From NCBI RefSeq assembly GCF_017352155.2, contig NZ_CP071462.1, forward strand, positions 1,984,001 to 2,048,000: a stretch of DNA of 64,000 bases. The letters are read 5' to 3'. The notes below the pieces were generated by a model. The model worked only from the letters and a program-made list of their open reading frames with translations. It was not told the DNA's origin and made no database searches. Positions 12,242 through 36,090 of this stretch are shown here, piece by piece. The position numbers were made by a program, and so were the translations under genes. The stretch's first letter is position 1. The number at the start of each line of letters is the position of its first letter. The stretch is from Haloterrigena alkaliphila. GTDB lineage: Archaea > Halobacteriota > Halobacteria > Halobacteriales > Natrialbaceae.

Positions 12242-13786
12242 ATGGAGTTCATCGACACATTCAACCGAACCGTTCGACGACACGCGTCGGAGACGGCCGT
12301 CGTTACCGACGACGGGCGATCGATGACGTACGGGGAGCTAGACGACCGAACGACTCGACTCGCGAACGCGCTGGACGAGCGCGTTCCCGAGCGACGGACG
12401 GCGACGCTGGCGGTCAACGGCCCGATGCCCATCGAAATGATGATCGCGGGCCAGAAACGCGGCCGCGGCAACGTGCAACTGCCGTTCCGCGACAGTCCGG
12501 GCGCGCTCGCCTCGATGCTCGAGCCGACGGACGCGGCGATCCTCGTCTTCGACGACGCGAACGCCGACAAGGCGCTCGAGGTCCTCGAGCGAACGGAGAT
12601 CGAACTGGGCGTGCACGCGGGCGAGCGCTCGATCGACCGCGAGGACGTCGAGTCCTACGACGTCGTCCTGTCGGACGCGTCGACCGACGACGTGGAACCG
12701 CATCCGGACTACGAACACGGCGTGTTCTACACGAGCGGGACGACGAGCAAGCCGAAGGCCGTGCTGTTCGGTCAGGAGGAGCTGTGGCACGGGAGCACGC
12801 AGGTGATCATGGAGATGGGGATCGAGGAGACCGACACGGCGCTGGTCACGACGCCGTGGTATCACATGGTGACCTGCGACGCCTGGATCCTGCCCCACAT
12901 TCAGGCCGGCGCGACGCTGGTCGTCCAGTCCGACTTCGATCCGGACGAGACGCTCCAGTTCATCGCCGAGCACGACGTGACCGGGCTCCTCGCGGTCCCG
13001 ACGCAACTGCACGGCATCGCGGATCGCCAGCGCGAGGCGGGGTACGATATCGACACCCTCTCGTACATCCGGACCGGCGGCTCGATCGTCACGGAGCGGC
13101 TCGTCGAGAAGGCCTCGGAACAGCTGACCGACGGCGTCTACAACACGTACGGACTGACCGAGGGCGGCCCGAACCTGACGTTCGCTCACCCGTCCGTCCA
13201 GGAGGAACACACGGGCTCGATCGGCAAGGAGTCGTTCGTCTCCGAGGTGCGGGTCGTCGAGGCCGCCGACCCCGACGAGGATCCGGACCCCGACGCGACC
13301 GTCGGCCCAGGCGGCACGGGAGAGGTGCTCGTCCGCGGTCCCGGCACCTGCGACGGTTACCTGGATCGCCCCGAGGCGACCGAACGACTGCTCGTCGACG
13401 ACGAGTGGATCCGCACGGGCGACGTCGCCGAGGTCGACGAGGACGGCTTCCTCTACATCGTCGGCCGCGTCGACAACATGATCGTCAGCGGCGGCGAGAA
13501 CATCTACCCCGAGGAGGTCGAGGAGGTCGTCGAGACCTACGAGGGCGTCGACGAGGCCGTCGTCGTCGGCCTCGAGGACGAACAGTGGGGCCACCGCGTC
13601 GCCTGCGTCGTCTGTACGAACGAGGACATAGAGACCGACGACCTCGACCGGTTCTGTACGGAGCACGACCACCTCGCGAACTTCAAGCGGCCCCGCGAGT
13701 ACGTGGTGACCACGGAATCGCTGCCGCGAACCGACACCGGAACCGTCGAACGGGAGACGGTCTACACCGAGTTCTTCGGCGAGTAG
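12242..13786 (+). CDS. AMP-dependent acyl/aryl-CoA ligase-like protein lacking the A10 lysine
   Basis: A 514-residue ANL-superfamily protein. It has the P-loop YTSGTTSKPKAV (about 165), TYGLTEGGP, and the hinge GDVAEVDEDGFLYIVGRVDN followed by MIVSGGENIYPEE. The C-terminal motif reads LPRTDTGTVERE, where nearly all members have Lys after TG; this Lys makes the adenylate. The protein may therefore be impaired in adenylation or use another residue. Context close to gentisate genes makes a benzoate-type acid a plausible ligand, but this is inference. It is followed by an MBL hydrolase gene. Confidence 0.9.
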   Translation: MEFIDTFNRTVRRHASETAVVTDDGRSMTYGELDDRTTRLANALDERVPERRTATLAVNGPMPIEMMIAGQKRGRGNVQLPFRDSPGALASMLEPTDAAILVFDDANADKALEVLERTEIELGVHAGERSIDREDVESYDVVLSDASTDDVEPHPDYEHGVFYTSGTTSKPKAVLFGQEELWHGSTQVIMEMGIEETDTALVTTPWYHMVTCDAWILPHIQAGATLVVQSDFDPDETLQFIAEHDVTGLLAVPTQLHGIADRQREAGYDIDTLSYIRTGGSIVTERLVEKASEQLTDGVYNTYGLTEGGPNLTFAHPSVQEEHTGSIGKESFVSEVRVVEAADPDEDPDPDATVGPGGTGEVLVRGPGTCDGYLDRPEATERLLVDDEWIRTGDVAEVDEDGFLYIVGRVDNMIVSGGENIYPEEVEEVVETYEGVDEAVVVGLEDEQWGHRVACVVCTNEDIETDDLDRFCTEHDHLANFKRPREYVVTTESLPRTDTGTVERETVYTEFFGE

Positions 13787-16843: not shown

Positions 16844-17719
16844 TCAGTCGTCCTTCTGGCTCTTCTCGACGTCGACGTCCGCGAAGGCGACGTCGCGCTC
16901 GGTGACCTCGACGGTCATCTGCCCGACGTCCTCGATCTCGGCGTCGATGGTGTCGCCGCCCTCGATCGCGCTGACGCCCGCGGGCGTCCCGGTGGTGATG
17001 ACGTCGCCGGCTTCGATGGTCGCGCCGATCGAGGCGTACTCGACGATGTCGCCGCAGCTGTAGATCATGCCGCCGGTGTTCTGTTGCTGTTTGGTCTCGC
17101 CGTTGAGCTGGAGTTCCATCTCGAGGTCGTGGGGGTCATCGAACTCGTCGGGCGTCGTGACGCAGGGGCCGATGACGGTGAACGTGTCGTAGGACTTCCG
17201 ATTCGAGCGGTCCTGATCACCGCGAACCGAGACGTCGAGCAGGATCGTGTAGCCGAGAACCGCGTCCCAGGCGTCCTCGGCGTCGATGTCCTTGACGTCC
17301 TCGCCCATGACGAAGCCGAGTTCGATCTCGTGGTCGACGCGCCGGTCGTTGAACGGTAGTTCGATGCCATCGGCCGGGCCGACGACGCTCGAGGGGGCCT
17401 TGAGGAAGTAGCCCTTGTCCTCGATGGTGAACCACTCCTCGGTGACGATGTCCTTGTCGGCCAGCGCCTCCTCGACGTGGTTCTCGTAGTTCAGCGGCGC
17501 CGCGATCACCTTGCCGGGACGGCGGACCGGCGCCTCGATGGTTACCTCCTCGCGGTCGTAGTCGGCGTCCTCGCCCTCGTACTCGCTCGCGTCGAGGTCC
17601 TTGCGGGCGTACTCCTTGAGGGGGTCGTTCGTCTCGAGGCCGAGTCGGTCGGTGACGTCGACGATGCCGTCGTCGGTCAGCAGACCGAGCCGATCGTCGT
17701 TGAATCTGACGAGTCGCAT
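16844..17719 (-). CDS. Fumarylacetoacetate hydrolase (FAH) family, probable maleyl- or fumarylpyruvate hydrolase
   Basis: A 291-residue FAH-fold C-C hydrolase. The metal ligands appear in DHEIELGFVMGED (ExE) and the family block KSYDTFTVIGPCV follows; GTPAGV near the end is also typical. The start 17719 lies 28 bases from a minus-strand TATA box (17743-17751), so translation is leaderless and a longer in-frame extension is rejected. It is transcribed away from gentisate dioxygenase, whose product maleylpyruvate (or its isomer) is the expected substrate. Whether it cuts the cis or trans form decides if maleate or fumarate is made. Confidence 0.93.
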   Translation of the reverse strand: MRLVRFNDDRLGLLTDDGIVDVTDRLGLETNDPLKEYARKDLDASEYEGEDADYDREEVTIEAPVRRPGKVIAAPLNYENHVEEALADKDIVTEEWFTIEDKGYFLKAPSSVVGPADGIELPFNDRRVDHEIELGFVMGEDVKDIDAEDAWDAVLGYTILLDVSVRGDQDRSNRKSYDTFTVIGPCVTTPDEFDDPHDLEMELQLNGETKQQQNTGGMIYSCGDIVEYASIGATIEAGDVITTGTPAGVSAIEGGDTIDAEIEDVGQMTVEVTERDVAFADVDVEKSQKDD

Positions 17720-17742
17720 GGTATGACAACCGCGACCCGACC

Positions 17743-17751
17743 ACATAAAAC
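17743..17751 (-). promoter_or_regulatory. TATA box of the FAH hydrolase gene
   Basis: Minus-strand GTTTTATGT, centred 28 bases before the ATG at 17719; predicts a leaderless transcript. Confidence 0.55.
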
Positions 17752-17875
17752 ATCCTTTCTCGGCTACCGACCGTCTCGAACGATCATTGAGGTTCTCTCG
17801 CAGTGAGGCGGTTCCGGAACGGACGCCGCGCCCGCGACCCGCAGCGGGCGCACACGGCTCAGGGGCCTCCAACAC

Positions 17876-17883
17876 ACTTATGG
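17876..17883 (+). promoter_or_regulatory. TATA box of gentisate dioxygenase
   Basis: ACTTATGG is centred 27 bases before ATG 17907. Its position argues that the ATG inside it (17880) is not the start codon. Confidence 0.5.
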
Positions 17884-17906
17884 TATCGTTCGACGAACAT
17901 ACGCAC

Positions 17907-18986
17907 ATGGCACAGCAAGAACCAGAGGACCTCCTAGAGCTGAGTTCCGATACGCGGAGCCTCCTCGACCAGAACGATCTCCGCCCGCTCTGGGAAGTCG
18001 AAGACGACATGGGGAACCTCCTCGACGACCTCGAAGCGGACATCTGGAAGTGGGAGGACATCCAGGCCGCCATCGACGGCATCGAGGACGACGTGCCCAT
18101 CGCCGATCTGCCGCCGGGGTTCCAGCGACGAGTCGCGGTGCCGATCAACGCCCAGAACGCGATTTCGAACACGATCTACGTCGGCGTCCAGACGGTCTCA
18201 CCCGGGGAGACCGCTCCCGCCCACCGGCACGCCGCCAGTGCGCTTCGGTTCACCATCGACGGTCACGAGGACATGAAGACGGTCGTCGCCGGCGAGGAGT
18301 TCCCGATGCGCGACAACGACCTCGTCACGACGCCCCAGTGGGAGTGGCACGACCACGTCAACGACTCCGACGAAACCGCCGCGTGGCTCGACGTCCTCGA
18401 CCTGCCGCTGTTCCTGGACACGCTGAACAACTCCCACGTCTTCGAGAACCACGAACTCGAGCGCCAGCCGGTCACGAAGACGCAGGGCTACTGGGACTCC
18501 CAGTACGGCCGCGGCCGACCCGAGGACGACGGCTCGGACGGCTCCATCCCCGGCCCGTTTCAGGGCAACAAGGAGCCGACGCCGCCGTACCGCTTCGGCT
18601 GGGACGAGATGCTCGAGGCGCTGCGCCAGCGGGCGGACAACGACGATCCGGACCCCCACGACGGGCACAGCCTCGCGTACATCAACCCGGCCACGGGCGA
18701 ACCGCCGCTGTTCCCGACCATGTCCTTCCGGGCGCAACTGCTGAACGACGGCCCGACCGACCCCCACTTCCACAACGCCGTCGAGGTCTACTTCGTCATC
18801 GAGGGCGAGGGCGCGACCCACGTCGGCGACGAGGCCCTCGAGTGGGGGCAGTGGGACATCTTCGTCGTCCCGCCGGACGAGCCCCACCACCACGAACCCG
18901 ACGACGAGGCGATCCTGCTGGGCATGACCGATCGACCGATCCTCGAGTCGATGAACTTCTACGCCGAAGCCGCGATCGACGAGTAA
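17907..18986 (+). CDS. gdoA: Gentisate 1,2-dioxygenase (bicupin)
   Basis: A 359-residue cytoplasmic, Fe(II)-dependent ring-cleaving dioxygenase that opens gentisate to maleylpyruvate. The first cupin has the metal motif APAHRHAASALRF (H106, H108) with a third His in WEWHDH (148-150); the second cupin has DPHFHNAVEVYFVIEG and ends PPDEPHHHEP. Family length is about 350, matching. ATG 17907 is preferred over 17880 because of the TATA box position. It is divergent from the FAH hydrolase gene. The 1,2-dioxygenase of Haloferax sp. D1227 is the known archaeal example. A 1-hydroxy-2-naphthoate dioxygenase is the main alternative. Confidence 0.93.
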   Translation: MAQQEPEDLLELSSDTRSLLDQNDLRPLWEVEDDMGNLLDDLEADIWKWEDIQAAIDGIEDDVPIADLPPGFQRRVAVPINAQNAISNTIYVGVQTVSPGETAPAHRHAASALRFTIDGHEDMKTVVAGEEFPMRDNDLVTTPQWEWHDHVNDSDETAAWLDVLDLPLFLDTLNNSHVFENHELERQPVTKTQGYWDSQYGRGRPEDDGSDGSIPGPFQGNKEPTPPYRFGWDEMLEALRQRADNDDPDPHDGHSLAYINPATGEPPLFPTMSFRAQLLNDGPTDPHFHNAVEVYFVIEGEGATHVGDEALEWGQWDIFVVPPDEPHHHEPDDEAILLGMTDRPILESMNFYAEAAIDE

Positions 18987-19090
18987 CGCGATCGCGGTCC
19001 CGTTTTCGCGGTTTCGAGGGCGTCCGAGCCCGGCCGAACGGTTCCCGATTGGGTAATACTCTTATAGATTGTAGCCCATAGCATTCCCGT

Positions 19091-19276
19091 ATGGCCGAGT
19101 TCGACAACCCGTACGTCGACGAGGATCCGTTCGTCCGAGCACACTTCGACTGTCTGGACTGCGGCGGCAAGCTCTGGGAGTACGCGATCCAGCGCCAGAT
19201 GGTCTGCGAGGACTGTCGCGGCGTCTTCTCGTCCCAGCAGGTGTTCGACGCCAACATCGAACAGCCCGCGGACTGA
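19091..19276 (+). CDS. Small two-CxxC zinc-ribbon protein
   Basis: A 61-residue protein with C21-x2-C24 and C39-x2-C42, an arrangement that binds one zinc ion. It resembles the zinc-finger micro-proteins common in haloarchaea, whose functions are mostly unknown. A TATA box (CTTATAGATT, 19061-19070) lies about 26 bases before the ATG, so it has its own leaderless transcript after the dioxygenase gene. No catalytic features are visible. Regulatory or protein-binding roles are possible. Confidence 0.75.
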   Translation: MAEFDNPYVDEDPFVRAHFDCLDCGGKLWEYAIQRQMVCEDCRGVFSSQQVFDANIEQPAD

Positions 19277-19361
19277 TTTTTCGGGTCGACTGCGTGGGAC
19301 GGCCCCCGATTCCGGTATCCCAGCCCGGCGTCCCAGCGGCGCTTCTTCCACCGCAGGGACG

Positions 19362-20243
19362 TCAGAGGAACCGCTCGGTCCGCGTCGTCTCGTAGCCGTC
19401 GGCGATCGAGTCGAAGGCCTCGTCCACGGCGTCGACCGTCCACCCATCCTCGGCGACGCCGGTCCGGATCTGCCGGGGCTCCGAGAGGATGCCGATCTCG
19501 TCGCCGGCGGCGGTCACCGTGACGCCCGTCACGTCGGCTGCGGCCTCGCTCAGCAGGTAGACCGCGGCGGGGGCGACGTCCTCGGGCGGCATCTCCTCGC
19601 GCGTGTACGGGCGGTGCTCTTCGGGGATCGATTCGGTCATCCGCGTGTAGCCGTTCGGGACGAGCGCGTTGACGCGGACGTCCTGCCGGTGGAGTTCCGT
19701 CGAGGCCGCCCGGACGAAACCGAGGATCCCCGCGTTGGCGCTCGCGTACGCGAGTTGGCCGACGTTCCCGAGCGCGCCCCTGGAACTGACCGCAAGAACC
19801 GAGCGGTCTTCGGGCGGGTCATCGGTTTCGCGCCAGTGTCGGACCGCCGCCCGCAACAGCGTGAAGTTACTCCGGAGGTGCGTCCGCACGACGGCGTCCC
19901 AGTCCTCGTCGGAGAGGGTCCACGACATCCCGTCCCGGAGGATTCCCGCGAAGTTGGCAATCCCGTCCAGTCGGCCGAACGCCTCGAGCGCAGTCTCGAC
20001 CGCCTCGGTCGCGTCGTCGGCGTCGGCCGCGTCGCCGAAGTGGGCGACCGCCGAGGCGCCGTCGATCTCACTCTCTATTTCCTCGGCGACCTCGCGGGCC
20101 GGCGCCGGGTCGGATCCCGTCCCGTCGACGGCGGTTCCCAGATCGGAGACGACGACGTTCGCCCCCTCGCGGGCCAGTTCCGTCGCCGTCTCGGCACCGA
20201 GTCCGTTGCCGCCGCCGACGACGAGGTACGCGGGATCGGTCAC
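19362..20243 (-). CDS. Short-chain dehydrogenase/reductase with altered YxxxK
   Basis: A 293-residue SDR. The dinucleotide site VVGGGNGLGAETA is at the N-terminus, followed by NFAGIL (NNAG position) and catalytic SSRGALGNVGQLAYASAN. The usual YxxxK reads YASAN, so the active-site Lys is Asn, which may reduce or change activity. GTG 20243 is chosen because GGAGGT (20250-20255 on the minus strand) is correctly spaced; an Arg/Asp-rich 50-codon extension upstream is rejected. It lies among gentisate genes and could oxidise an alcohol or dihydrodiol intermediate, but this is speculative. Confidence 0.88.
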   Translation of the reverse strand: MTDPAYLVVGGGNGLGAETATELAREGANVVVSDLGTAVDGTGSDPAPAREVAEEIESEIDGASAVAHFGDAADADDATEAVETALEAFGRLDGIANFAGILRDGMSWTLSDEDWDAVVRTHLRSNFTLLRAAVRHWRETDDPPEDRSVLAVSSRGALGNVGQLAYASANAGILGFVRAASTELHRQDVRVNALVPNGYTRMTESIPEEHRPYTREEMPPEDVAPAAVYLLSEAAADVTGVTVTAAGDEIGILSEPRQIRTGVAEDGWTVDAVDEAFDSIADGYETTRTERFL

Positions 20244-20483
20244 GCGGACCACCTCCGCTCGGCTGCGGTCGGTCTCCGCGTCCGCGTCCCGACCGTCGAT
20301 CGCTCGACGATCGTCCGTCTCCCGACGGCGGGCGTACCGACGGGCGTCGGGTTCGTCGCGGTACTCTCCCGGGGTCGCGCAGTCGCGGGGCATCGATCGC
20401 TCATTGTCTCGGATCGTTCGCTCGATACGCGGCCGCCGATAATCATGGTTCGGGACCGAACCGGGACGTGGATTCCCGACTCG

Positions 20484-20893
20484 CTACGCCCGATCCGTCT
20501 CGTCGTCGTCTTCGTCGCAGACGAGCACGGGACGGGCGCTCTTCAGGATCACGGCGTGACGCTCCCGAACAGCGCCTTCCCCGTCGGCGAGCGCTTTCGA
20601 CCGGCCAGGCAGATCAGGTCGACGTCGTGTTCCGCCGCGTGCTCGAGGACTTCCGCGGCCGGGTCGCCGCTGCGCTCCTCGAGGACGTATTCGATTCCGC
20701 GCTCGGAGAGCGCGCGTTCGACCGCCTTCGCCGCACCCAGTTGCTGGATCGTCGCGCCGTCCGGGTTTTCCGTGAAGACGTGGAGCACCCGGACCCGCAT
20801 CGCGTCCGTCTCGACTGGAATGCCCGTGATCGTCGCGGCCTGCGCGAGGGCACGGGATTTGTGCTGATCGATCGCGAGTAGGACGTCGTACAT
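20484..20893 (-). pseudogene. Universal stress protein (UspA) gene interrupted by a 4-base deletion
   Basis: From ATG 20893 the frame encodes a UspA domain (MYDVLLAID to AGRKRSPTGKALFGSVT) but stops at 20549 after 114 residues. The missing C-terminal strand, AVILKSARPVLVCDEDDD, is encoded in the next frame down to a TAG at 20484. Comparison with the intact paralogue at 30086-30475 (GSVTQDV) indicates loss of four bases between about 20555 and 20556. The promoter (minus-strand GCTTATCA, about 20917-20924) looks intact. A sequencing error cannot be excluded; if real, the last beta strand near the nucleotide-binding G-S/T motif is lost. Confidence 0.75.
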
Positions 20894-21119
20894 AGGGGAT
20901 GGTACGGGGACGGTCGTGATAAGCGCGTCTCGTGTTCCCACCGAGTGGTGACACCGGTCCGTCGTCCGATCCCTGCTCCTCGAGGCCGATTCGGATCCGG
21001 CCGCTGCCGGCGCAGCGGTCGATCGCTCGGTCACAATCTCCGCGATCAAGATCGTTTCAGCGACGCGGACCGCGGCGGAAATGGAATGGATTTACGTGAT
21101 GGCGCTCGAGAATGGGCGT

Positions 21120-21443
21120 ATGGTACTCGAAACGGATCTCGAAGACGCCGCAGCGAAGCGAGACGACCTCCCGGACGCCGACGAGGTGTACGACGAGGGC
21201 GAGGAAATTCCGATCACCGACGTGTTCGACGACGCCTTCGTCGCGGAGCGGACCGACTTCGAGACGTTCGACGAACTGGTCGCCGAGAGCCCCAGCGAGG
21301 CCACCTCGGCCGCGGACCTCGAGACGGTTCCCCACGGCGAGTGGGACGAGTTCGTCGCGGAGCGGACCGAGTTCGAGAACGAACAGGCGTTCGTGATGGC
21401 CGGCCGCGACCACTGGGTCGCCAAGCGACTGGACCTGGCCTGA
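21120..21443 (+). CDS. Uncharacterised acidic protein with an internal FVAERTxFE repeat
   Basis: I do not recognise this 107-residue protein. It is very acidic. The element FVAERTDFE recurs as FVAERTEFE about 40 residues later, suggesting two short repeated units, and the C-terminal MAGRDHWVAKRL is less acidic. The start at 21120 is chosen because GATTTACG (21089-21096) lies about 27 bases upstream; 13 codons of upstream open frame overlap that box. It is transcribed alone between the uspA remnant and the monooxygenase. Confidence 0.65.
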   Translation: MVLETDLEDAAAKRDDLPDADEVYDEGEEIPITDVFDDAFVAERTDFETFDELVAESPSEATSAADLETVPHGEWDEFVAERTEFENEQAFVMAGRDHWVAKRLDLA

Positions 21444-21576
21444 ACCGGCGCTCCTTTTCGCGCGACTCGCGTCCGAGCAGCCGAACGGCCGTTCGGAAAT
21501 CGAACGCAGGATTGCAGTCTCGCGGCGAGAAAACGTCGAAAACGAGTGCGACTTCGATCCGGCCGGTGGCCGGTGG

Positions 21577-22812
21577 TCAGTAGCTCCCGGTCGACACGAT
21601 CGGCGGGGCACCGTGGGGACCGTACGGCGCGTCGTCGAGCCACTCGCCGGCGGTCTCGAACTTGTCGGACATCGAGGCGGCGACCTCCTTCCGGAGGACC
21701 GTTACCGGATCGTCGCCCTGGAGGTACTCGAGGGCCTGTCCGGCCGCGCCGAGGTTGTATTCGGCGGCCTTCTCGCGGCGCGCCCCGTACAGTTCGACCT
21801 CGTCGCGGGCGACCGCGTCCGTGCGGGCGTCGAGCGCGACGGCGATGGCCGAGGCGGCCTCGTCGGCGTCGGCGATGCCGGAGTTCATCCCGCGGGCGCC
21901 GAAGGGCGCCAGCAGGTGGGCGGCCTCGCCGGCCAGCAGCACGCGTCGGTGATCGTCGACGAACGTGTCCGCCATCACCTGGAGGAAGTAGTACGAGGAG
22001 ACCCACTTGAGGTTGTCCTCGTACTCCTCGCCCATGACGTCGCGGACGAACTCCCGCATCCGCTCGTCGCTGCTGAGTTCCTCGGGGTCGTCGTCCTCGA
22101 TGCACTGGATGTCGAGGCGCCAGCCGCCGGTAAAGGGAACGAGCAGGACGTTCCGTCCGTCGGCTTCGGGCGCGTCGTAGTGGAACATCCGCTCGAGGTC
22201 CTCGTGACCGTCCTCGATCGCCTCGTCCTCGACGTCGGCGATGATGAAGGCGTTCTCGGACTGGTCGCCCTCGAAGTTCGCTCCGATCTCCTTGCGGACG
22301 GTCGAGCCGCCGCCGTCGGCGCCGACCAGGTACTCGGCCGACCACTCGCGGCCGTCGCTCGTTTCCACGTGGACGCCGTCGGCCGAGGAGTCGACGGTCT
22401 CGACTTCGGCTTCCCAGTGGATGTCGATCCCGACCTCGTCCAGCGCGTCGAGCATGTACTGCTCGGTGACGACCTGCGGGACGCTGGTGAAGTGGGGGAT
22501 GTCGCCGGAGCCGCCGGGGGAATCGTACGTCCGGTTGAACACTTCCTTCCCCTTGTACAGGGTCCGTCGAGTCGGCCAGACGAGCCCCTCCTCGACGAGG
22601 TCGGTTCCCAGTCCGGGGTGGACTCGCTCGAGCGTGCGAAGCGTCGAGCCGTGGACGTAGATGGCCCGGCTCCCGGACCGATCCCGGTCTTCGGGTTCGG
22701 CCTCGAGAATCGTCGTCTCGACTCCTCGTGCGTGCAACGCTAGCGCCGCCGTCATGCCGACTGGTCCGGCACCGGCGATCAGTACCGGCGCGTCGGTCGT
22801 TTCACCGCTCAT
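21577..22812 (-). CDS. FAD-dependent aromatic monooxygenase (PHBH/MhpA-type)
   Basis: A 411-residue class A flavoprotein hydroxylase. The FAD dinucleotide site IAGAGPVGMTAALAL is at the N-terminus, the DG motif reads LVGADGGGSTVRKE, and the second FAD motif reads LLAGEAAHLLAPFGARGMNSG, with Glu where the GD motif has Asp. It likely hydroxylates a phenolic ring using NAD(P)H and O2. Beside gentisate genes it could make gentisate from 3-hydroxybenzoate or salicylate, or act on a CoA thioester with side-chain migration. ATG 22812 is chosen; a GTG three codons upstream is possible. Confidence 0.92.
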   Translation of the reverse strand: MSGETTDAPVLIAGAGPVGMTAALALHARGVETTILEAEPEDRDRSGSRAIYVHGSTLRTLERVHPGLGTDLVEEGLVWPTRRTLYKGKEVFNRTYDSPGGSGDIPHFTSVPQVVTEQYMLDALDEVGIDIHWEAEVETVDSSADGVHVETSDGREWSAEYLVGADGGGSTVRKEIGANFEGDQSENAFIIADVEDEAIEDGHEDLERMFHYDAPEADGRNVLLVPFTGGWRLDIQCIEDDDPEELSSDERMREFVRDVMGEEYEDNLKWVSSYYFLQVMADTFVDDHRRVLLAGEAAHLLAPFGARGMNSGIADADEAASAIAVALDARTDAVARDEVELYGARREKAAEYNLGAAGQALEYLQGDDPVTVLRKEVAASMSDKFETAGEWLDDAPYGPHGAPPIVSTGSY

Positions 22813-23128
22813 GGTACGCACTGACGAAGTACGGTGCCATAGTGTTTGTGGTGTCCACCGCTCGCGCCCCAGTAGATTACAAAATACGATTAGAGAAGAT
22901 TCTATATTACGATAGGGGGATAAGCGTGCGGTATCACGTGATCTCCCGCCGCGTTCGGTCCCGAAATCGGCGCGAATCGCGGTGCTTCCGCGACAATGTC
23001 CGAAACGAGAGCGGCCGGAACGGCGATTCGCGCCTCGCGTTTCACATCAGCGAACGAACGCGGTATCCGGGATCGGCTCGGGCAGCGGATCAATGGTAGT
23101 AGTAGCGGGGAGGGGACGCTCAGCGGTG
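22813..23128. other. 316-bp region between the monooxygenase and the acetyltransferase
   Basis: Contains the promoter side of the monooxygenase gene and an A/T-rich block at 22870-22925 with an ATTACA element. Open frames here look like antisense or chance. No gene called. Confidence 0.45.
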
Positions 23129-23713
23129 CTATCGGTCGCGGGTCGCCGGCGGTTTTTGGACAGCTGCGACCCGCTCGTCGGCCAGTGGTAACCGCATCTC
23201 TAGATCCATCTGGTTGGTGGCGGTCACGTCGAACCCGACCTTCTCGTAGACGGCGATCGCGCGGCGTTGCTCCCGGGAGACGTTGAGGTTCAGTTCGTCG
23301 TAGTTCCGATCGTCGGCGTAGGCGACGACCTGCTGTAGCAGTTCCGTGCCGATGCCGCGATCCTGGAACTCGGGGTGGACGAAGATGACGAACTCCGGGT
23401 CGGTGGCGTCGGCCGGGACGACGGCTACGTGGCCGACGACGTCGTCGCCGAGCGTCGCGAGCAGGTTCCAGCCGTCGGCCGCGAGTCCGTGAATCCACCG
23501 CTCGAGGGTCTCCCGTCTGCTCGGTGGGAGCCCCATCGTCGACGTCTGGATGGACTCGTACATCGCGACCAGCGCGTCGTACCGGTCGGGATCGTACGGG
23601 CGAATCAACAGGGCCGTACCCTGCCGATCGACGAACCGCGGGCAGCGGGGCGGACAGTACTCGGTCCCCTCGCACCCGGTGTTGTCCCAGCCAGTACACG
23701 CGTTTGCAGTCAT
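23129..23713 (-). CDS. GNAT N-acetyltransferase with an N-terminal cysteine cluster
   Basis: A 194-residue protein. Residues 40-190 form a GNAT domain with the acetyl-CoA loop HPEFQDRGIGTELL and a C-terminal YEKVGFDV strand. The first 24 residues hold four cysteines (C6, C14, C20, C24), a likely zinc site. The start at 23713 is preferred; an extension of 13 codons to a GTG at 23752 is possible. The acceptor is unknown and nothing in the sequence links it to aromatic metabolism. Confidence 0.85.
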   Translation of the reverse strand: MTANACTGWDNTGCEGTEYCPPRCPRFVDRQGTALLIRPYDPDRYDALVAMYESIQTSTMGLPPSRRETLERWIHGLAADGWNLLATLGDDVVGHVAVVPADATDPEFVIFVHPEFQDRGIGTELLQQVVAYADDRNYDELNLNVSREQRRAIAVYEKVGFDVTATNQMDLEMRLPLADERVAAVQKPPATRDR

Positions 23714-23848
23714 ACGAGACGGATAGGTTGCCAGCCACTCGTCGTTTTGCACGAACCTGTTCGGTCGACCGGTCGTCGGCAGTCCTCTCGGTACGGCTAA
23801 CGCCGGCCGAACCTTCTATGCGCTCGACGGCGTACGAGCGGGTGACCC

Positions 23849-24607
23849 ATGAGCGACAGTTTTCGCGTCGGGCTGATCGTCCCGAGTTCGAACGTCACGA
23901 TGGAGACGGAGATTCCGGCGATGCTGCGAGCGCGGCCGGACCACTACGGCGAGACGTTCACCTTCCACTCCAGTCGCATGCGGATGCAAAGCGTCACGCA
24001 GGAGGAACTCGAGCGCATGGACGAACAGTCCGAGGACTGTGCGACCCTGCTGTCGGACGCCCGCTGTGACGTCCTCGCCTACGCGTGTCTCATCGGGATC
24101 ATGGCGCAGGGACCGGGCTACCACGAGGAGAGCGAGTCGACGCTCCACCAGCGGACCGTCGAGAACGACGCCGACGCGCCCGTCGTGACCAGCGCCGGCG
24201 CGCTCGTCCGCGCCCTCGAGCGCCTGGAGGCCGAGGAGATCGCGCTGATCGCGCCGTACGTCGAGGAGCTCACGCAGACGGTGATCGACTACTTCGAGAG
24301 TGCCGGCGTCGACGTAATCGACTACGAGACCCTCGAGTGTCCCGACAACCTCGAGGTCGCCCAGTTGGACCAGCGGAACCTCGTGAGCATCGCGGACGAC
24401 CTCGACACCGACGCCGCCGACGCCCTCGTCCTCTCGTCGTGCGTCCAGATGCCGTCGCTGAACGCGATCCAGGCCGCGGAGGACCGGTTCGGCCTGCCGG
24501 TCTTCTCCGCGGCGACCGCGACCACCTACGAGATCCTCGACCACCTCGAGGTCAGCACCCAGGTACCCGGTGCGGGGCGACTCCTATCCGGCGGCCTCAA
24601 CCGGTGA
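23849..24607 (+). CDS. Maleate isomerase-like protein (Asp/Glu racemase superfamily)
   Basis: A 252-residue protein matching the maleate cis-trans isomerase/arylmalonate decarboxylase family. The N-terminus VGLIVPSSNVTMETE is the family signature. The two catalytic cysteines are present: C80 in YACLIG and C198 in SSCVQMPS, at the spacing expected for maleate isomerase. The reaction is maleate to fumarate without cofactor. Its place among gentisate genes suggests a role after the FAH hydrolase; in bacteria the same enzyme acts in nicotinate breakdown. A hydantoin- or malonate-type substrate remains possible. Confidence 0.88.
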   Translation: MSDSFRVGLIVPSSNVTMETEIPAMLRARPDHYGETFTFHSSRMRMQSVTQEELERMDEQSEDCATLLSDARCDVLAYACLIGIMAQGPGYHEESESTLHQRTVENDADAPVVTSAGALVRALERLEAEEIALIAPYVEELTQTVIDYFESAGVDVIDYETLECPDNLEVAQLDQRNLVSIADDLDTDAADALVLSSCVQMPSLNAIQAAEDRFGLPVFSAATATTYEILDHLEVSTQVPGAGRLLSGGLNR

Positions 24608-25154
24608 TCGGTGGCATCTCCAGGGCCTCGACGCGGTTCCAGGATCGAGCGCTTCCGCGCGGTCGGATCAGCTGGCGACCGCGATAGCGGATCAGTAACG
24701 CTTCGTTGACAAATCCTAAGTACTGATTGTCCTCGAGACGGGCGTCTCGAGCGGGGAGCAGGAACGGTGGATCGAATTTGCAGCGGAACGATATCGTCTA
24801 AATACGGGAACAGACATTACAACCATCGACTAGCAAATATACTATATTACAATCGACTATTATATCGGATAGAAGTAGGGTTAGTGTAATTCATTCCAGA
24901 ATCTGACTAGTGAAATAGCGTGTCACACGGATGAACAGACTGCATTCGTCCAGAATTTACGACGGTATGGACGTGATGACGGGTTCGGTCTCGGCCCGCT
25001 GTCTGTGCGTCTCGAGGACTGCCCGAGAGGGTGAACCACGACCGTCGGTAACGGACCTCGAGACGGCCAGCGAGGCCGCGATCGGCGCGGGACCGGGCCG
25101 CCGGTATTTGATATGAGCAAAAGAGTATTGCGCTTTGAATCCATACGTAAGCGC
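24608..25154. other. 547-bp intergenic region with A/T-rich repeats
   Basis: No gene recognised. It has a perfect CTCGAGACG/CGTCTCGAG palindrome (24732-24751) soon after the isomerase gene, a strongly A/T-rich block (24780-24900) with ATTACA direct repeats, and the promoter side of the next IclR gene. Confidence 0.55.
24816..24862. repeat. Direct repeat ATTACAA..ATCGACTA
   Basis: ATTACAACCATCGACTA at 24816-24832 and ATTACAATCGACTA at 24846-24859, 30 bases apart, in an A/T-rich zone before the IclR gene. Likely regulatory; inference only. Confidence 0.45.
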
Positions 25155-25961
25155 ATGAGTTCGGACGACGACTCACGGCGGATTCGATCCGCGGACAGGG
25201 TGTTCGATATCCTCGAGCACCTGCGGGCGACGGGCGGGTCGACGGTCTCGGCCACCGCCGAGGCCGTCGGACTCTCGCCGGGGACCGCTCACACCTACCT
25301 CTCGACGCTCGAGTCCCGCGGCGTCGTCCGGAAGGACGACGGGGCGTATCGGCTCGGCCTCGAGTTGCTGCCCTACGGGGATCACGTTCGCATTCAGAAC
25401 GAACTCTACCGCGCGGCCAAGGCGGAGATCCACCGGCTGGCCCACGATACCGACGCCTGCGCACACCTCATGACGGAGCACGACGGTCGACTGCTCGTGC
25501 TCCAGGAGGCCTTCGGCGAGAACGCGATCGGGACGGACTTTCACCCGCAAAAACGGGACAGTCCCCAGTCCCTCCTGCACTGCACCGCCGCGGGGAAGGC
25601 GATCCTCGCCCACCTCCCCGACTACCGCGTCGCGCAGATTATCGAGGACCACGGCCTCGTCTCCTACACGTCGTCGACGATCACGGACGAGTCCGAACTG
25701 GTCGCCGAACTCGAGGCCGTCAGGGAGCGCGGCTTCGCGCTGAACGATCAGGAGCACATGCAGGGGCTCCGCGGCGTCGGGACGCCGATCCGGTACGACG
25801 GCGGGCGCGTCCTCGGTGCGATCAGCCTCTCGGGGTCCGCGAGCAACTGGAGCGGCGCCCGATTCCGGGAAGCGTTGTCGGAGAAGGTCATGCGAGCCGC
25901 GAACGCCATCGAGGTGAACCTGCACTCGAACCGCTCCGACGCGGATCGACCGTCAGTTTGA
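25155..25961 (+). CDS. IclR-family transcriptional regulator (second of three)
   Basis: A 268-residue regulator with an N-terminal winged helix (RSADRVFDILEHL, then AVGLSPGTAHTYLSTLESRG) and an IclR effector domain (HCTAAGKAILAHLPDY and ELEAVRERGFALNDQEHMQG). ATG 25155 is chosen over one 14 codons upstream, giving the usual TATA-to-ATG spacing from AAAAGAGTA (about 25122-25130). It follows the maleate isomerase gene and precedes the amidohydrolase-Rieske pair, so it is a candidate regulator of either. Its effector domain is typical, and its ligand unknown. Confidence 0.94.
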   Translation: MSSDDDSRRIRSADRVFDILEHLRATGGSTVSATAEAVGLSPGTAHTYLSTLESRGVVRKDDGAYRLGLELLPYGDHVRIQNELYRAAKAEIHRLAHDTDACAHLMTEHDGRLLVLQEAFGENAIGTDFHPQKRDSPQSLLHCTAAGKAILAHLPDYRVAQIIEDHGLVSYTSSTITDESELVAELEAVRERGFALNDQEHMQGLRGVGTPIRYDGGRVLGAISLSGSASNWSGARFREALSEKVMRAANAIEVNLHSNRSDADRPSV

Positions 25962-26187
25962 TACGCTCAATTCCGTTCCTCGCGACGGGCGTCAGGTATT
26001 CGCGCTACTCGGTCGCGTTCGTCCGTCTCCGCCGACTAGTCTTACACACGTATGCTTGTCAAATACCACCCCTCGATCCCTCGAGATGGCGGTTTCGAAC
26101 GGCTTTGATTACTTCAAACCAACCGCGAGAACGCCGAGCGCGGCTATAATTAGCCACCGATGCCGGAAGCTCGTTCCGTGGAGTACA

Positions 26188-26197
26188 GCTATATACG
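26188..26197 (+). promoter_or_regulatory. TATA box of the first amidohydrolase-Rieske operon
   Basis: GCTATATACG is centred 28 bases before ATG 26220, predicting a leaderless message and fixing the start codon. Confidence 0.55.
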
Positions 26198-26219
26198 CCG
26201 ATACGGCGGTTGTACGACC

Positions 26220-27338
26220 ATGCTCGAGCCGGACGAGAGCCAACCGAGACAGGAGACGTTAGACCAGTATTACGTCATCGACGGCGACTGCCACTACATG
26301 GAGTCGTTCCACGACGTCGCCGAGTACATGGAGGAGCCCTGGAAGACGAAGTTCGAGGGCAGCAACTTCGACGAGAAGGGGGCGAAACAGAACCTCAGTT
26401 CCTTCTTCCCCTTCTCGACCGGCGACCGACAGGCCCACGGGAAGGTCACCCGCGAGCACTCCTCGTACCCCGACGAGCCCGAGACGCCCGAGCGCATCCG
26501 CGAGGGAATGGAGTCGATCGGCGTCGACGAGACGCTGCTGATCTCGCATCTGATCCTCGCCGGCGCGGGGACGACCGCGGACGACGACCGTCAGAGCGCG
26601 TTCGCGAAGGCCTACGTCGAGTACATGCGGGAGGAGGTCCTCGATCCGGACGACGGGATCCACGGCCTCGCACCGATTCCGTACGGCGACCTCGAGGCGT
26701 CCCACGAGATCCTCGACCGGGTCGGGGACGACGACGCCTACGTCGGCGCCTGTTTCGTCACCGCCGGCGCGACCCCGCCGCTGGGCAACCGCAAGTACGA
26801 CCCGCTCTACGAACGCTGCGAGGAACTGGGTCTTCCGGCGGTGTTCCACACCGGCGGCGCCGGCCTCGACGAGTACGTCCGCGCCGGCTACCAGGAGATG
26901 ATCGAGACGCACACGCTGGGCTTCCTCGAGTCGAACATGTCCCAGATCGTCAGCCTCGTCTGTCAGGGCGTTCCGGAGAAGTTCCCGGATCTGGACATCG
27001 TCTTCATGGAATCGGGCGTCACCTACCTCCCCGGCCTGATGACGCGTCTCGACGAGGAGTACCTCAAGCGGCCCGAGGAGGCGCCGCTGCTCGAGAAGAA
27101 GCCCGGCGAGTACATCTCCGACTTCTACTACGGCACGCAGCCGCTGGAGGTGTCGGCCGACTCGAGCTACCTCGAGGACTGCTTCGACATGATCGGGACG
27201 GACAGCCTGCTGTACGCCTCGGACTACCCCCACTGGGACTACGACCGGCCGACGACGGTCGCGGACCTCCCCTTCCTCTCCGAGGACGAGAAGAAGCAGA
27301 TCCTCTCGGAGAACGCCAAGGAGGTGTTCGGTCTGTGA
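26220..27338 (+). CDS. Amidohydrolase-2 family protein (ACMSD/decarboxylase-like), copy 1
   Basis: A 372-residue TIM-barrel metal enzyme. Likely metal and catalytic residues are visible in IDGDCHYME (DxDxHxxE), FHTGGAG, ETHTLGFLESN and SDYPHWDYDRP. Relatives include aminocarboxymuconate-semialdehyde and hydroxybenzoate decarboxylases, as well as C-C hydrolases. The stop overlaps the GTG of a Rieske gene by 4 bases, so the two proteins are made together. A second pair with the same order and overlap is at 50433-51892; the two amidohydrolases are clearly homologous over their full length. The reaction is unknown. Confidence 0.9.
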   Translation: MLEPDESQPRQETLDQYYVIDGDCHYMESFHDVAEYMEEPWKTKFEGSNFDEKGAKQNLSSFFPFSTGDRQAHGKVTREHSSYPDEPETPERIREGMESIGVDETLLISHLILAGAGTTADDDRQSAFAKAYVEYMREEVLDPDDGIHGLAPIPYGDLEASHEILDRVGDDDAYVGACFVTAGATPPLGNRKYDPLYERCEELGLPAVFHTGGAGLDEYVRAGYQEMIETHTLGFLESNMSQIVSLVCQGVPEKFPDLDIVFMESGVTYLPGLMTRLDEEYLKRPEEAPLLEKKPGEYISDFYYGTQPLEVSADSSYLEDCFDMIGTDSLLYASDYPHWDYDRPTTVADLPFLSEDEKKQILSENAKEVFGL

Positions 27339-27718
27339 GCACCGCGGAACTGATCGAGGTGAAACCCGAAGCCGAGTTCGAGGACGGCGACCGCGAACTC
27401 GTCGAGGTAAACGGCGCGCAGGTCGGCGTCCTCCGGGTCGACGGGGAGTTCTACGCGGTCCGGAACCGATGTCTCCACGACTGCGGGCCGGTCGCGAGCG
27501 GCAAAGTCGGCCGGAAACTCGTCGGCGAGTTCGTCGAACCGGGTAAGCGCGTCGAGAAGGATTACGCCGACGACGAGAAGATCATCTCCTGTCCGTGGCA
27601 CGGCTGGTCGTACGACCTCGAGACGGGCGAACAGCTCGCCGACGACGACATCGTCCTGCCGACCTACGACGTCGTCCTCGAGGACGGCGTCGTCTACGTG
27701 GACGGCCAGCGGTCCTGA
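27335..27718 (+). CDS. Rieske [2Fe-2S] protein with long inter-motif loop, copy 1
   Basis: A 127-residue soluble Rieske-type protein. The cluster ligands are C46-x-H48 and C86-x2-H89 (CPWHGWSYD). The gap between the motifs is 37 residues, whereas ferredoxins and ring-hydroxylating oxygenases usually have 15-17; bc1-type proteins can be longer. The loop holds a charged stretch with GEFVEPGKRVEKDY. There is no oxygenase alpha subunit or reductase nearby. GTG start, overlapping the amidohydrolase stop by 4 bases. An electron-transfer or structural partner of the amidohydrolase is inferred. Confidence 0.9.
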   Translation: MSTAELIEVKPEAEFEDGDRELVEVNGAQVGVLRVDGEFYAVRNRCLHDCGPVASGKVGRKLVGEFVEPGKRVEKDYADDEKIISCPWHGWSYDLETGEQLADDDIVLPTYDVVLEDGVVYVDGQRS

Positions 27719-28277: not shown

Positions 28278-29738
28278 CTAGATCAGACCGACGGCGGCGG
28301 CCCCGTGAGTCAGTCCGGCGGCGATGGGAACGAGCAGTGCGGTCCGGAGCACCAGCAGGATGCCGAGATCGCGGAATCGCATGGGCACGTCGTCGAACAT
28401 GTCGACCATCATCGGCGCCGACGCGGCGAAGAAGATCGCCTGCGAACTGGTGACGATCACGACGAACACCTGCGTGAGGAGGTCGGCTTCGACGACGAGC
28501 GTCGCTCCGATGAAGTACTCGGCACCGCCGACGATGACCGCCGTCGCGGCCGTCTGCGGGTCCGGAATTCCGAGGATCGTCATCAGGGGAACGAACGGCC
28601 CCGCGAGGTACGCGAAGACGTCCGTGTACGCCTCGAGCAGGAGCACGGACGTCGCGATCGTCAGCACCGTTCCGAGGATCATCGCGGTGAGTTTCGTGCC
28701 GTCGACGAAGCCGTCGACCGCCGCGCGGGGGATCGATTTCCCCTCTTCCGCGGTTCTGACGCCCTCGTTGAAGGCGAATCGGAAGTAGTCGGTGACGGAC
28801 CCGGTGAACATCGGCTCCGGATCGGGTTCGGCGATGTACTCCTCGGGGATCGTCGAGAGCGGCGGGATCCGGACGAGGATCGCGGCGACGATGAGCGTCG
28901 CGATCAGGTACAGCAGGATGAGGACCGGGAAGATGTGGAGCACGTCGAGCACGGCGGCGACCGCGCCGACCGTCCCGAGGTTAGCGGTGGCGAAACAGGT
29001 GCAGATCACGAACACCTCGCGCTTGTTGTAGCCGCCGCGGTCGAAGACGTTCCGCGTGAGGTAGTAGCCGATGCTGAACGAACCGAGCCACGACGCGGCG
29101 CTGTCGAGGGCCGATCGACCGGGCAGATTGAACAGCGGACGCATGATCGGCTGGGCCAGCGTGCCGATGAACTGGAGGCCGCCGAGTTCGGCGAGCAGAT
29201 TGACGAAGATGCCGCCGAGGGGAATCACGAGTACGATCGTGATCATGAGCACGTCCCAGGCGGTTGCCGAGACGGGACCCGCGACCAGCCAGTCGGGACC
29301 GACTCCGAGGAACATCGGGACGGCGAGGAAGATCGCGATCACGCGGAACGCCCAGAACGGCTTCGAGGTCTGCCAGTAATCGATCTGGAGTCGCCGTTGA
29401 TTGCGTTCGCTCAGCGTGATCGCGCCCATGTAGTGGAGCATCGTGACCGTCGTCAGGATCGCGCCGGCGAACAGGATCGCCAGCGTGAACAGTTCGACGG
29501 TGAGCAACGACGTCTCCGTGATGAGCGACATCAGGACGTCGAGCGGGATCGTCGTCTGGCCTTCCCACTGCACCGGGAAGAGGAAGAAGAACGCGCCGGT
29601 CAGAAAGGCGACGACGAATTTCGCCGTCGGCTGAAGGCGTTTTTCGACGAGGTTCACGTCGTCGATCGACTTTTTCTCGGGTTGTACGGACTCTCCCGAG
29701 ATGTGATCGTCATCCTCCCAGCTTTGACTGCCGAACAT
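28278..29738 (-). CDS. YjiH family membrane protein (nucleoside-recognition/Gate domains)
   Basis: A 486-residue membrane protein with about ten hydrophobic segments and two Gate-type regions (around PLFNLPGRSALDSAASWLGSF and near DPQTAATAVIVGGAEYFIGA). The family is called a nucleoside-recognition or YjiH transporter; bacterial members are uncharacterised. The first 40 residues are charged and cytoplasmic. ATG 29738 is chosen because a minus-strand TTTTTATG box (about 29763-29770) lies 29 bases upstream. It may import an organic acid or amine for the cluster, but no substrate is evident. Confidence 0.85.
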   Translation of the reverse strand: MFGSQSWEDDDHISGESVQPEKKSIDDVNLVEKRLQPTAKFVVAFLTGAFFFLFPVQWEGQTTIPLDVLMSLITETSLLTVELFTLAILFAGAILTTVTMLHYMGAITLSERNQRRLQIDYWQTSKPFWAFRVIAIFLAVPMFLGVGPDWLVAGPVSATAWDVLMITIVLVIPLGGIFVNLLAELGGLQFIGTLAQPIMRPLFNLPGRSALDSAASWLGSFSIGYYLTRNVFDRGGYNKREVFVICTCFATANLGTVGAVAAVLDVLHIFPVLILLYLIATLIVAAILVRIPPLSTIPEEYIAEPDPEPMFTGSVTDYFRFAFNEGVRTAEEGKSIPRAAVDGFVDGTKLTAMILGTVLTIATSVLLLEAYTDVFAYLAGPFVPLMTILGIPDPQTAATAVIVGGAEYFIGATLVVEADLLTQVFVVIVTSSQAIFFAASAPMMVDMFDDVPMRFRDLGILLVLRTALLVPIAAGLTHGAAAVGLI

Positions 29739-30085
29739 AGTTCGAGCGATTGTGGCATGGGACATAAAAACACCGATCATATGTCGGTTTCCGTACTACT
29801 GTAATGATAATAACGTATATGCTATTACGCCCTGTCTCGGCGAAACCATGCTCGAAACCGACTCCAGTGACGAAAACGGCGTCAGTCAGGGACTCCAGCG
29901 TGTTCGCCTTGGGTCGTCGCCCGGCGATCGCGTCGCCGGCCACGATACAGCGTGAGCGAGAGGCCGAGAGGGGATCTGCTGCAGGTCGAGCTATCGGAAC
30001 GGTCGCTAGTCGAACCCATCGGAACCGGCCGAAAAAGCGCTCGCGGACGAGGACGACGGATCGAACGCCCCCGCGACGGCGATCG
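29739..30085. other. 347-bp intergenic region
   Basis: Holds the promoter of the YjiH-type gene at its left end. The remaining sequence has frames on both strands without family resemblance or promoters. Nothing else seen. Confidence 0.45.
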
Positions 30086-32199: not shown

Positions 32200-32598
32200 C
32201 TAGGCGCCGTTTTCCAGCGCGTCGCGCAGGTCGTCGGGGATGGGGACGCCGCTGTCGCCGTCGACGGGGACGCAGACGCGGTACTCGGTCCCGCTGAAGA
32301 CCGCCTCGCCGTCGTGGGTCGCCCGGTAGTGAAACTGGACGCTCGAGTTCCCGACGTCCGTCTCGAGTTCGATCTCGACCTCGTCGCCGCCGCCGACCTG
32401 CCCTTCGAAGTCGAAGTCCATCGAGACGAGTGGGAGTCCGACGCCGTGCTCCTCGGTCAGTTCCCAGAACGGCCAGCCGATCTCTTCCATGAACATGTCC
32501 GAGGTCTCGTGGACCGCGTCGATCATCCGCGGATAGTGGGCGATGCCGAACGGGTCGGTGTCCGAAAACCGGACGGTCCAGGTTCGCGTGAAACTCAT
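32200..32598 (-). CDS. 4HBT-family (hotdog) acyl-CoA thioesterase
   Basis: A 132-residue single hotdog domain. RFSDTDPFGIAHYPRM near the start carries the catalytic-type Asp (D15) and the GIAHY helix start of 4-hydroxybenzoyl-CoA thioesterases. The central EVEIELETDVGNSS strand and GTEYRVCV follow. It hydrolyses a CoA thioester; in this region gentisyl-CoA or a hydroxybenzoyl-CoA is a reasonable guess. A minus-strand box (GCTTTATACC, 32629-32638) gives a short leader. YbgC-like housekeeping activity on short acyl-CoA is the alternative. Confidence 0.9.
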   Translation of the reverse strand: MSFTRTWTVRFSDTDPFGIAHYPRMIDAVHETSDMFMEEIGWPFWELTEEHGVGLPLVSMDFDFEGQVGGGDEVEIELETDVGNSSVQFHYRATHDGEAVFSGTEYRVCVPVDGDSGVPIPDDLRDALENGA

Positions 32599-33003
32599 CG
32601 TGATATGCGGAACCGACTGGTGGAGATGGTATAAAGCTACTGCCGAATTCCGCGACCCCCGTTCGATCGCCGAACGAGTGGTAGTCGGGCGTTCTCGAGG
32701 GGTTGGACCCGCTATTTCGAGAATTATCTGTAACTATCATGTACTTCTACGCCGGATACAGTACGCTCTCCGCACCATATTCTCCCACGAGAAAACATTC
32801 ATGGGAGCGGCGTGCGAAGTGCAGCCACAAATGGACATCGAAGCACGCGTCGGTGGCGGCCGGTCGCCGGACTCCGGCGACGCGGCGTCCGACGAGTACA
32901 GCCGGCTTTCGGACGGAACGCCTGGCTCCGGGGTGGACGGGCGGGCGTCCGCGAACCGAGACGGGCGCGAGACGGTTCCGATCGGCGACTCTTCAGACGA
33001 GCT
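32599..33003. other. 405-bp region before the FAD/Fe-S dehydrogenase
   Basis: Left part holds the thioesterase promoter. A rightward ATATTC-type TATA element (about 32772-32780) lies about 26 bases before a small candidate gene at 32801. No other feature seen. Confidence 0.5.
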
Positions 33004-33007
33004 ATGA
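32801..33007 (+). CDS. Candidate small protein overlapping the FAD/Fe-S dehydrogenase start
   Basis: A possible 68-residue acidic, Gly/Ser/Asp-rich protein with no recognised domain. Its stop overlaps the next ATG (ATGA), as in coupled operon genes. The codons end mainly in G or C like real genes nearby, and a TATA-like element lies about 26 bases upstream of ATG 32801 (a second ATG is at 32831). It could be a genuine leader peptide or simply transcribed leader sequence. Confidence 0.4.
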   Translation: MGAACEVQPQMDIEARVGGGRSPDSGDAASDEYSRLSDGTPGSGVDGRASANRDGRETVPIGDSSDEL

Positions 33008-36000: not shown

Positions 36001-36090
36001 GAGAGCTCGCTCGCCGGGAGCGACCTGGACGGCGACGAGCCGCCGACCCCGATCGAACTGCTCGCCCACGCGCTCCCGCGGTCGCGGTAG
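33004..36090 (+). CDS. FAD-binding and Fe-S dehydrogenase (D-lactate/2-hydroxyacid, GlcD-GlcF-like fusion)
   Basis: A 1028-residue respiratory dehydrogenase. Residues 40-560 form a PCMH-type FAD domain with LPRGGGTSLAGQ, IGNNSTGAHSLKYG and a C-terminal GEHGDGRART block. From about 600 the Fe-S part has CHGCGGCRGEQ, then CIGCKGCARDCPSE (about 668), and two CCG-type ends, GHCHQK (about 911) and CCGMAGSFGYE (about 941). It oxidises a 2-hydroxyacid and passes electrons to the membrane or another carrier. The upstream extension is rejected. UspA and DUF3237 genes follow. Confidence 0.92.
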   Translation: MTARSNTPLDVDEEPETDDRAAYDYVSEDIERPDLVAALRERIDGDVRFDTYTRQLYATDASAYEETPIGVVFPTSTADVASVVSYCAEHEIPVLPRGGGTSLAGQAINEAVVLDFTRHMNGIVSVDADDRRARVQSGVILEELNAELAPHGLKFAPDPAAGNRSVIGGAIGNNSTGAHSLKYGKTDAYVEECEVVLADGTVATLGEIAVDELRERADPEGDLLERVSAEVVRIIDEEADEVRDRFPNLKRNVSGYNLDMLVDEAESGTVNLARLLAGSEGTLAVVTEAEVSLEPVPETKAVSLLFYESVLEAVTDVQHVLAHDPAAVELIDDVLIELARETAEFEDIAALVPDGSQAALLVEFYADDDDHGRERTAGLLADRVPGTDSDASPPEDRPDVDEVYAFEGLEAHAAASREKFWKLRKAGLPILLSRTSDEKHISFIEDCAIPPEHLSEFVERFQSLLVEKDRDVDAAFYAHAGPGVLHVRPLVNTKATRDREDMVDIADAVTDMVVEFGGSVSGEHGDGRARTQWNRKLYGDELWATFRDLKTAFDPDWLLNPGNVCGDHDMTENLRYDDDYEYEAGFEPSLNWDNENGMQGMVELCHGCGGCRGEQETTGGVMCPTYRAAEEEITATRGRANLLRQAMSGDLPDDPTDDEFVDEVLDLCIGCKGCARDCPSEVDMAKLKTEVMHARHQEEGASLRDKLFANFDRLAPLGSALAPISNAVQSLPGAETIAEKTVGIARERSLPEFHRETVQDWFERRGGSRVPESEAERKAVFFVDTYTNYSHPAVGKATVRVLEAAGVRVDLARRTDSGRPALSKGFVDQARETMRSNVAELRPRADDGWDVVLAEPSDAVMFQSDALDLLSGDAVESVAANAYGVCEYLDTFRLGENVDWAAPGESVAYHGHCHQKAVKKDHHAVGVLRRAGYGVDPLDSGCCGMAGSFGYEAEHYSLSQSIGDILVGQIEDSEATVVTAPGTSCRTQLGDKRLEPVPAESSLAGSDLDGDEPPTPIELLAHALPRSR

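Follow-up and report, generated by a model that had tools for sequence, protein, structure and literature searches.

A predicted glutathione-independent gentisate pathway through maleate in the haloarchaeon Haloterrigena alkaliphila

A gentisate gene cluster in H. alkaliphila

The 4.27 Mb genome of Haloterrigena alkaliphila includes a 3.8 Mb contig (NZ_CP071462.1) that carries the 64,000-nucleotide stretch analyzed here (positions 1,984,001 to 2,048,000; hereafter the window). Genes for a fumarylacetoacetate hydrolase (FAH)-superfamily protein, a gentisate 1,2-dioxygenase (GDO) and a maleate isomerase-like protein are all open at the positions claimed by an earlier sequence-only reading (Table 1). 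The FAH and GDO genes lie head to head with 187 bp between their starts, confirming the divergent arrangement described in that reading, and the isomerase-like gene is found beyond GDO at a distance of 4.9 kb. The FAH reading frame spans 16844-18172 on the minus strand, and homology places its start codon at 17719 (ATG), which sets the gene limits given in Table 1.

Between GDO and the isomerase-like gene are genes encoding a 61-aa zinc-ribbon-like protein, an SDR, a Usp protein, a small protein, an FAD monooxygenase and a GNAT protein. The 61-aa protein (19091-19276) contains a CxxC...CxxC pattern and gave no match in a family search. In some 20 GDO clusters, the neighbor of the FAD monooxygenase is an acidic 120-aa protein without a family (21081-21443 in the window).

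Table 1. Features of the gentisate cluster and its surroundings (positions within the window)
Feature	Position	Strand	Basis
FAH-superfamily hydrolase, predicted maleylpyruvate hydrolase (HbzF/SsMPH clade)	16844..17719	-	PF01557 3e-53
Gentisate 1,2-dioxygenase (GDO), two-cupin, haloarchaeal type	17907..18986 (from ATG)	+	TIGR02272 207 bits, cut-off 442
Zinc-ribbon-like protein, 61 aa	19091..19276	+	<=3 kb from GDO at 47/48 haloarchaeal loci
FAD-dependent aromatic monooxygenase, candidate gentisate-forming enzyme	21577..22821	-	PF01494; same cluster, 20 loci
Acyl-CoA ligase, candidate aryl-CoA ligase of CoA route to gentisate	12242..13786	+	PF00501; 31 loci
4HBT-type thioesterase, candidate gentisyl-CoA thioesterase	32200..32598	-	PF13279; 28 loci
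Predicted maleate cis-trans isomerase, C80 and C198 kept	23849..24607	+	4fq7 3e-78; motifs, tree
IclR-family regulator	25113..25961	+	
Amidohydrolase-related oxygenase (ARO)-like protein, candidate aromatic hydroxylase	26160..27338	+	PF04909; top PDB match 8sm7
Rieske ferredoxin, likely redox partner of ARO-like protein	27335..27718	+	PF00355; CxH...CxxH in translation
Gate-domain membrane protein, candidate transporter	28278..29780	-	PF07670; recurrent neighbor of isomerase
FAD/FeS D-2-hydroxyacid dehydrogenase-like protein (YdiJ-like)	32812..36090	+	25 GDO-cluster loci; family of Haladaptatus homolog

Haloarchaea have been known to use the gentisate pathway since the 1990s, and GDOs with published activity have been characterized from Haloferax D1227 and Haloarcula D1. 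The window GDO falls below the NCBIfam equivalog cut-off for this enzyme (TIGR02272). Published haloarchaeal GDOs share about 24-25% identity with a bacterial GDO, a divergence that makes this cut-off a poor test for archaea, and we treat the window protein as a GDO by resemblance.

The hydrolase groups with maleylpyruvate hydrolases

The top PDB match of the window FAH is the maleylpyruvate hydrolase 6jvv/6jvw (160 bits), which we take to come from Sphingobium sp. SYK-6 (SsMPH), whereas it scores 77 bits against 6j57 and 61 bits against 6j5y, both presumably fumarylpyruvate hydrolase structures. In a 34-row tree, in which HbzF itself is represented by its Neorhizobium counterpart, the haloarchaeal FAH proteins, SsMPH and HbzF-type bacterial proteins form one clade (support 100/99), and NagK-type proteins form a separate one (support 100/100). 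The position of SsMPH inside its clade is weakly supported (84/25). Members of the FAH clade carry a shortened clade-specific loop and an RG...R..RKS-D motif, of which SsMPH has a looser form (RG...R...RK).

HbzF together with a dioxygenase converts gentisate to maleate in E. coli (PMC5658364), and the Sagittula counterpart of the Neorhizobium HbzF reference is 57% identical to HbzF (PMC11705938). Clusters of the Neorhizobium/Sagittula type carry separate NagK and NagL genes beside the HbzF-type gene. From its clade we infer that the window FAH is a maleylpyruvate hydrolase of the HbzF/SsMPH type, with the caveat that clade membership is not equal to substrate assignment. The proposal that this enzyme cuts maleylpyruvate to maleate and pyruvate is supported at the level of sequence by its grouping with HbzF and SsMPH, apart from NagK.

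A predicted maleate isomerase with both catalytic cysteines

The isomerase-like protein aligns over its full length with the maleate isomerases of P. putida S16 (4fq7, 3e-78) and Nocardia farcinica (2xec, 6e-64), and matches arylmalonate decarboxylases at 3e-8 at best. By NCBIfam it is neither a EutA nor an arylmalonate decarboxylase equivalog (90.8 of 318 and 80.4 of 225 bits, respectively). C80, in 'AYACLIGI', and C198, in 'LSSCVQMPS', align with both cysteines of 4fq7 and 2xec, confirming the catalytic pair recognized earlier, and the five motif blocks around them are identical or conservatively replaced relative to the solved maleate isomerases. Both cysteines and the surrounding motifs recur in 12 haloarchaeal isomerase copies, with minor substitutions in some. 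As every inspected active-site motif is kept, the window protein is a predicted maleate isomerase.

More distant haloarchaeal homologs (28-41% identity), one of them in this genome, belong to another clade with a different second-cysteine motif. We considered these as substitutes for the isomerase and rejected them on the basis of their separate clade, their other motifs and their lack of association with GDO (Fisher p 0.15).

The hydrolase accompanies the dioxygenase across haloarchaea and the isomerase is optional

Across 322 genomes of the class, GDO is present in 47. FAH was found in 46 genomes, all of them GDO-positive, with best identities outside this genome of 67-93%, and in 44 of the 46 no more than 10 kb separates it from GDO; the one GDO genome without FAH is G312, whose GDO is at 46%. 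A close isomerase (at least 66% identity) is present in nine genomes, every one with GDO. The association of both genes with GDO is not chance (Fisher p about 3e-55 for FAH and about 1.5e-8 for the isomerase, uncorrected for kinship), and direct maleylpyruvate hydrolysis looks general in haloarchaea.

The isomerase is optional, since 38 of the 47 GDO genomes have no close copy and a collinear gentisate cluster in another haloarchaeal genome (L116, G130:C78:46000-62018; below, G130) lacks the isomerase and GNAT genes while sharing 77-87% nucleotide identity with the window cluster over most aligned blocks. Conversion of maleate to fumarate is not a general haloarchaeal rule. The sequence-only reading fared well in its observations, and most of its interpretation is borne out at the level of sequence: the three-gene pathway is supported for this genome, and the co-occurrence of the three genes, which it suggested surveying, holds in that FAH (46/46) and the isomerase (9/9) are confined to GDO genomes. 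It did not hold as a general scheme, with the isomerase in only 9 of the 47 and missing from the otherwise similar G130 cluster.

We further examined 12 isomerase loci, drawn from the nine genomes and three further named plasmids. Five of them (the window, G255, Haloarcula JP-L23, Haladaptatus salinisoli and G098, the last with a second FAH copy) have an FAH of the maleylpyruvate hydrolase clade no more than 10 kb from the isomerase. The count rises to six if the G094 contig is circular, and nine of the 12 have a PF04909 gene at such a distance. In Natrinema DC36 a single plasmid carries the isomerase about 19 kb from GDO and FAH. Only the PF04909 oxygenase is found near the isomerase in G057, G319 and G012, and neither GDO nor FAH is near it in G288 and G311. 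On a small contig (L103, G098:C33), the second FAH copy accompanies PF04909, Rieske and isomerase genes, and the PF04909/Rieske genes are apparently duplicated.

Classical gentisate pathways isomerize maleylpyruvate with an enzyme of the NagL zeta-GST type or of the mycothiol/DinB type of Corynebacterium. A profile search of the 47 GDO genomes gave no match to MDMPI_N, the DinB-type isomerase domain, and none above cut-off to the zeta-GST model TIGR01262. The seven sub-threshold zeta-GST matches (E 1e-4 to 1e-3) were rejected, being far below cut-off and in several cases interrupted by internal stops; the single match in this genome has two stops inside. The earlier remark that neither isomerase type is seen in the window is borne out and extends to the whole genome. 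The GshB N-domain (GSH-S_N) was absent from all 20 GDO genomes tested.

Candidate routes into gentisate

CoA-linked routes to gentisate in bacteria employ an acyl-CoA ligase, an FAD monooxygenase and a thioesterase, and the window cluster has an acyl-CoA ligase, an FAD monooxygenase and a 4HBT thioesterase. It also encodes a PF04909 protein followed by a Rieske ferredoxin. The top PDB match of the PF04909 protein, 8sm7, is a dinuclear ARO (PMC10811679), and a PF04909 gene beside a small Rieske ferredoxin is the arrangement used for ARO prediction. Relatives of this protein at 63% identity or above occur in 18 genomes of the class, all GDO-positive (18/18), and the archaeal isomerase usually travels with the ARO-like protein and its ferredoxin. 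The ARO-like protein may feed the gentisate pathway, and together these peripheral genes (ligase, FAD monooxygenase and thioesterase; ARO-like protein and Rieske ferredoxin) probably make gentisate.

Two PF04909/Rieske pairs are present in the window, at 26160-27718 and 50433-51892. The second adjoins a gene for a NicX/M29-like protein (48666-49658) that matches 7cn3 at 3.6e-9 and has no Pfam or NCBIfam match.

A proposed pathway and its alternatives

In the pathway that we propose, GDO would open gentisate to maleylpyruvate, FAH would cut maleylpyruvate directly to maleate and pyruvate, as its clade suggests, and the two-cysteine isomerase, with its conserved active site, would convert maleate to fumarate, probably by way of a covalent succinyl-cysteine intermediate as in characterized maleate isomerases. 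Fumarate would then enter the TCA cycle. Ring cleavage, direct hydrolysis and maleate isomerization would together finish the pathway without glutathione. The steps rest on homology, linkage and the absence of alternatives, and we regard such a glutathione-independent pathway through maleate as likely and as the best account for this genome. It is better viewed as two parts: direct hydrolysis of maleylpyruvate, which looks general, and isomerization of maleate, which is optional.

A reading that can hold alongside this one is that FAH makes maleate throughout, most haloarchaea dispose of it by another route such as hydration to D-malate or export, and the isomerase is a minority plug-in. We consider this evenly balanced. 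FAH is near-universal with GDO and the isomerase is patchy, the G130 cluster is collinear without it, and GDO clusters often include a DASS symporter and the YdiJ-like D-2-hydroxyacid dehydrogenase. However, no more than two aconitase-family proteins are present in several of the genomes that lack the isomerase. An additional LeuC-type maleate hydratase is therefore not evident there, and we set that candidate aside. More tentatively, haloarchaea throughout might combine direct maleylpyruvate hydrolysis with interchangeable means of maleate disposal (isomerase, another enzyme or export), with an ARO and Rieske ferredoxin making gentisate or its precursor.

FAH could instead be a fumarylpyruvate hydrolase acting after an unrecognized isomerase, leaving the maleate isomerase to another pathway or to maleate scavenging. 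The 38 GDO genomes without a close isomerase, all but one of which keep FAH, would fit such a scheme, as would the separation of the isomerase from GDO in several genomes and the uncharacterized small proteins that adjoin GDO, one of them at 47 of 48 loci. We nevertheless judge it unlikely: the tree places FAH among maleylpyruvate hydrolases and apart from NagK types, the 47 genomes yielded no DinB or confident zeta-GST enzyme, and all nine genomes with the close isomerase have GDO.

A role for the isomerase in a pyridine (nicotinate or picolinate) pathway ending in maleamate and maleate, to which one could be led by the P. putida S16 homolog (which we take to be a nicotinate-pathway enzyme), an Azospirillum homolog within a nic-type operon, the weak NicX-like protein in the window (48666-49658) and an apparent molybdenum hydroxylase trio near the isomerase in G012, is very improbable. 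GDO, FAH and the oxygenase are the genes to which the isomerase is linked, and we recognized no gene of the maleamate amidase type beside it. NicX-like matches in these genomes are weak (3e-16 at best), half-length in most cases and just as frequent where the isomerase is missing. In the window NicX-like protein, one His presumed to bind metal is also apparently replaced. With only weak and unspecific NicX-like matches, we rejected a nicotinate-type role.

Comparison with known systems

The haloarchaeal literature that we found describes the dioxygenase only, and the gene set described here offers a means of processing maleylpyruvate without glutathione. It predicts maleate as an intermediate in haloarchaeal gentisate breakdown, and two nearly identical clusters, one that has the isomerase (the window) and one that lacks it (G130), provide a natural comparison. 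Classical gentisate pathways have GDO ring cleavage in common with the haloarchaeal set but rely on a zeta-GST or DinB isomerase, neither of which was found in the 47 GDO genomes.

The same three-step gene set is found in bacteria. In Leisingera thetidis (pBMJM1_6), genes for GDO, FAH and the isomerase (racemase) are contiguous; its GDO scores 289 bits against TIGR02272, likewise below cut-off, and its FAH belongs to another clade than that of the window. Among the best 80 bacterial isomerase loci that we kept, a sample biased by a query that began with the Leisingera protein, 43 have GDO and FAH, mostly contiguous, and three have NicX. FAH at these loci is mostly of another clade; in an acidobacterial MAG the isomerase occurs together with GDO and an FAH of the HbzF clade. 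The scheme of three enzymes therefore recurs with FAH proteins of more than one type.

Direct hydrolysis of maleylpyruvate is known in Pseudomonas, where an FAH-type hydrolase acts without a prior isomerase, as proposed here. That route next hydrates maleate to D-malate, whereas the archaeal cluster has a maleate isomerase. We found no description of a maleate isomerase combined with gentisate in the open literature searched, and the pairing of direct maleylpyruvate hydrolysis with a maleate isomerase appears unreported in archaea.

At the level of individual enzymes, SsMPH is the closest solved relative of the window FAH and has the short loop and RG...R...RK region in common with it, although the two are distant (160 bits). 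Both catalytic cysteines and their surrounding motifs are common to the window isomerase and those of P. putida S16 and Nocardia farcinica. The window gene is linked to gentisate genes, whereas the P. putida enzyme presumably serves nicotinate catabolism. Finally, the dinuclear AROs AibH1H2, SfbO and PtmU3 have a PF04909 protein beside a Rieske ferredoxin, as in the window. Unlike these, the window ARO-like protein is linked to aromatic catabolism, which hints that amidohydrolase-related oxygenases, a little-known group, may have a role in the metabolism of aromatic compounds.
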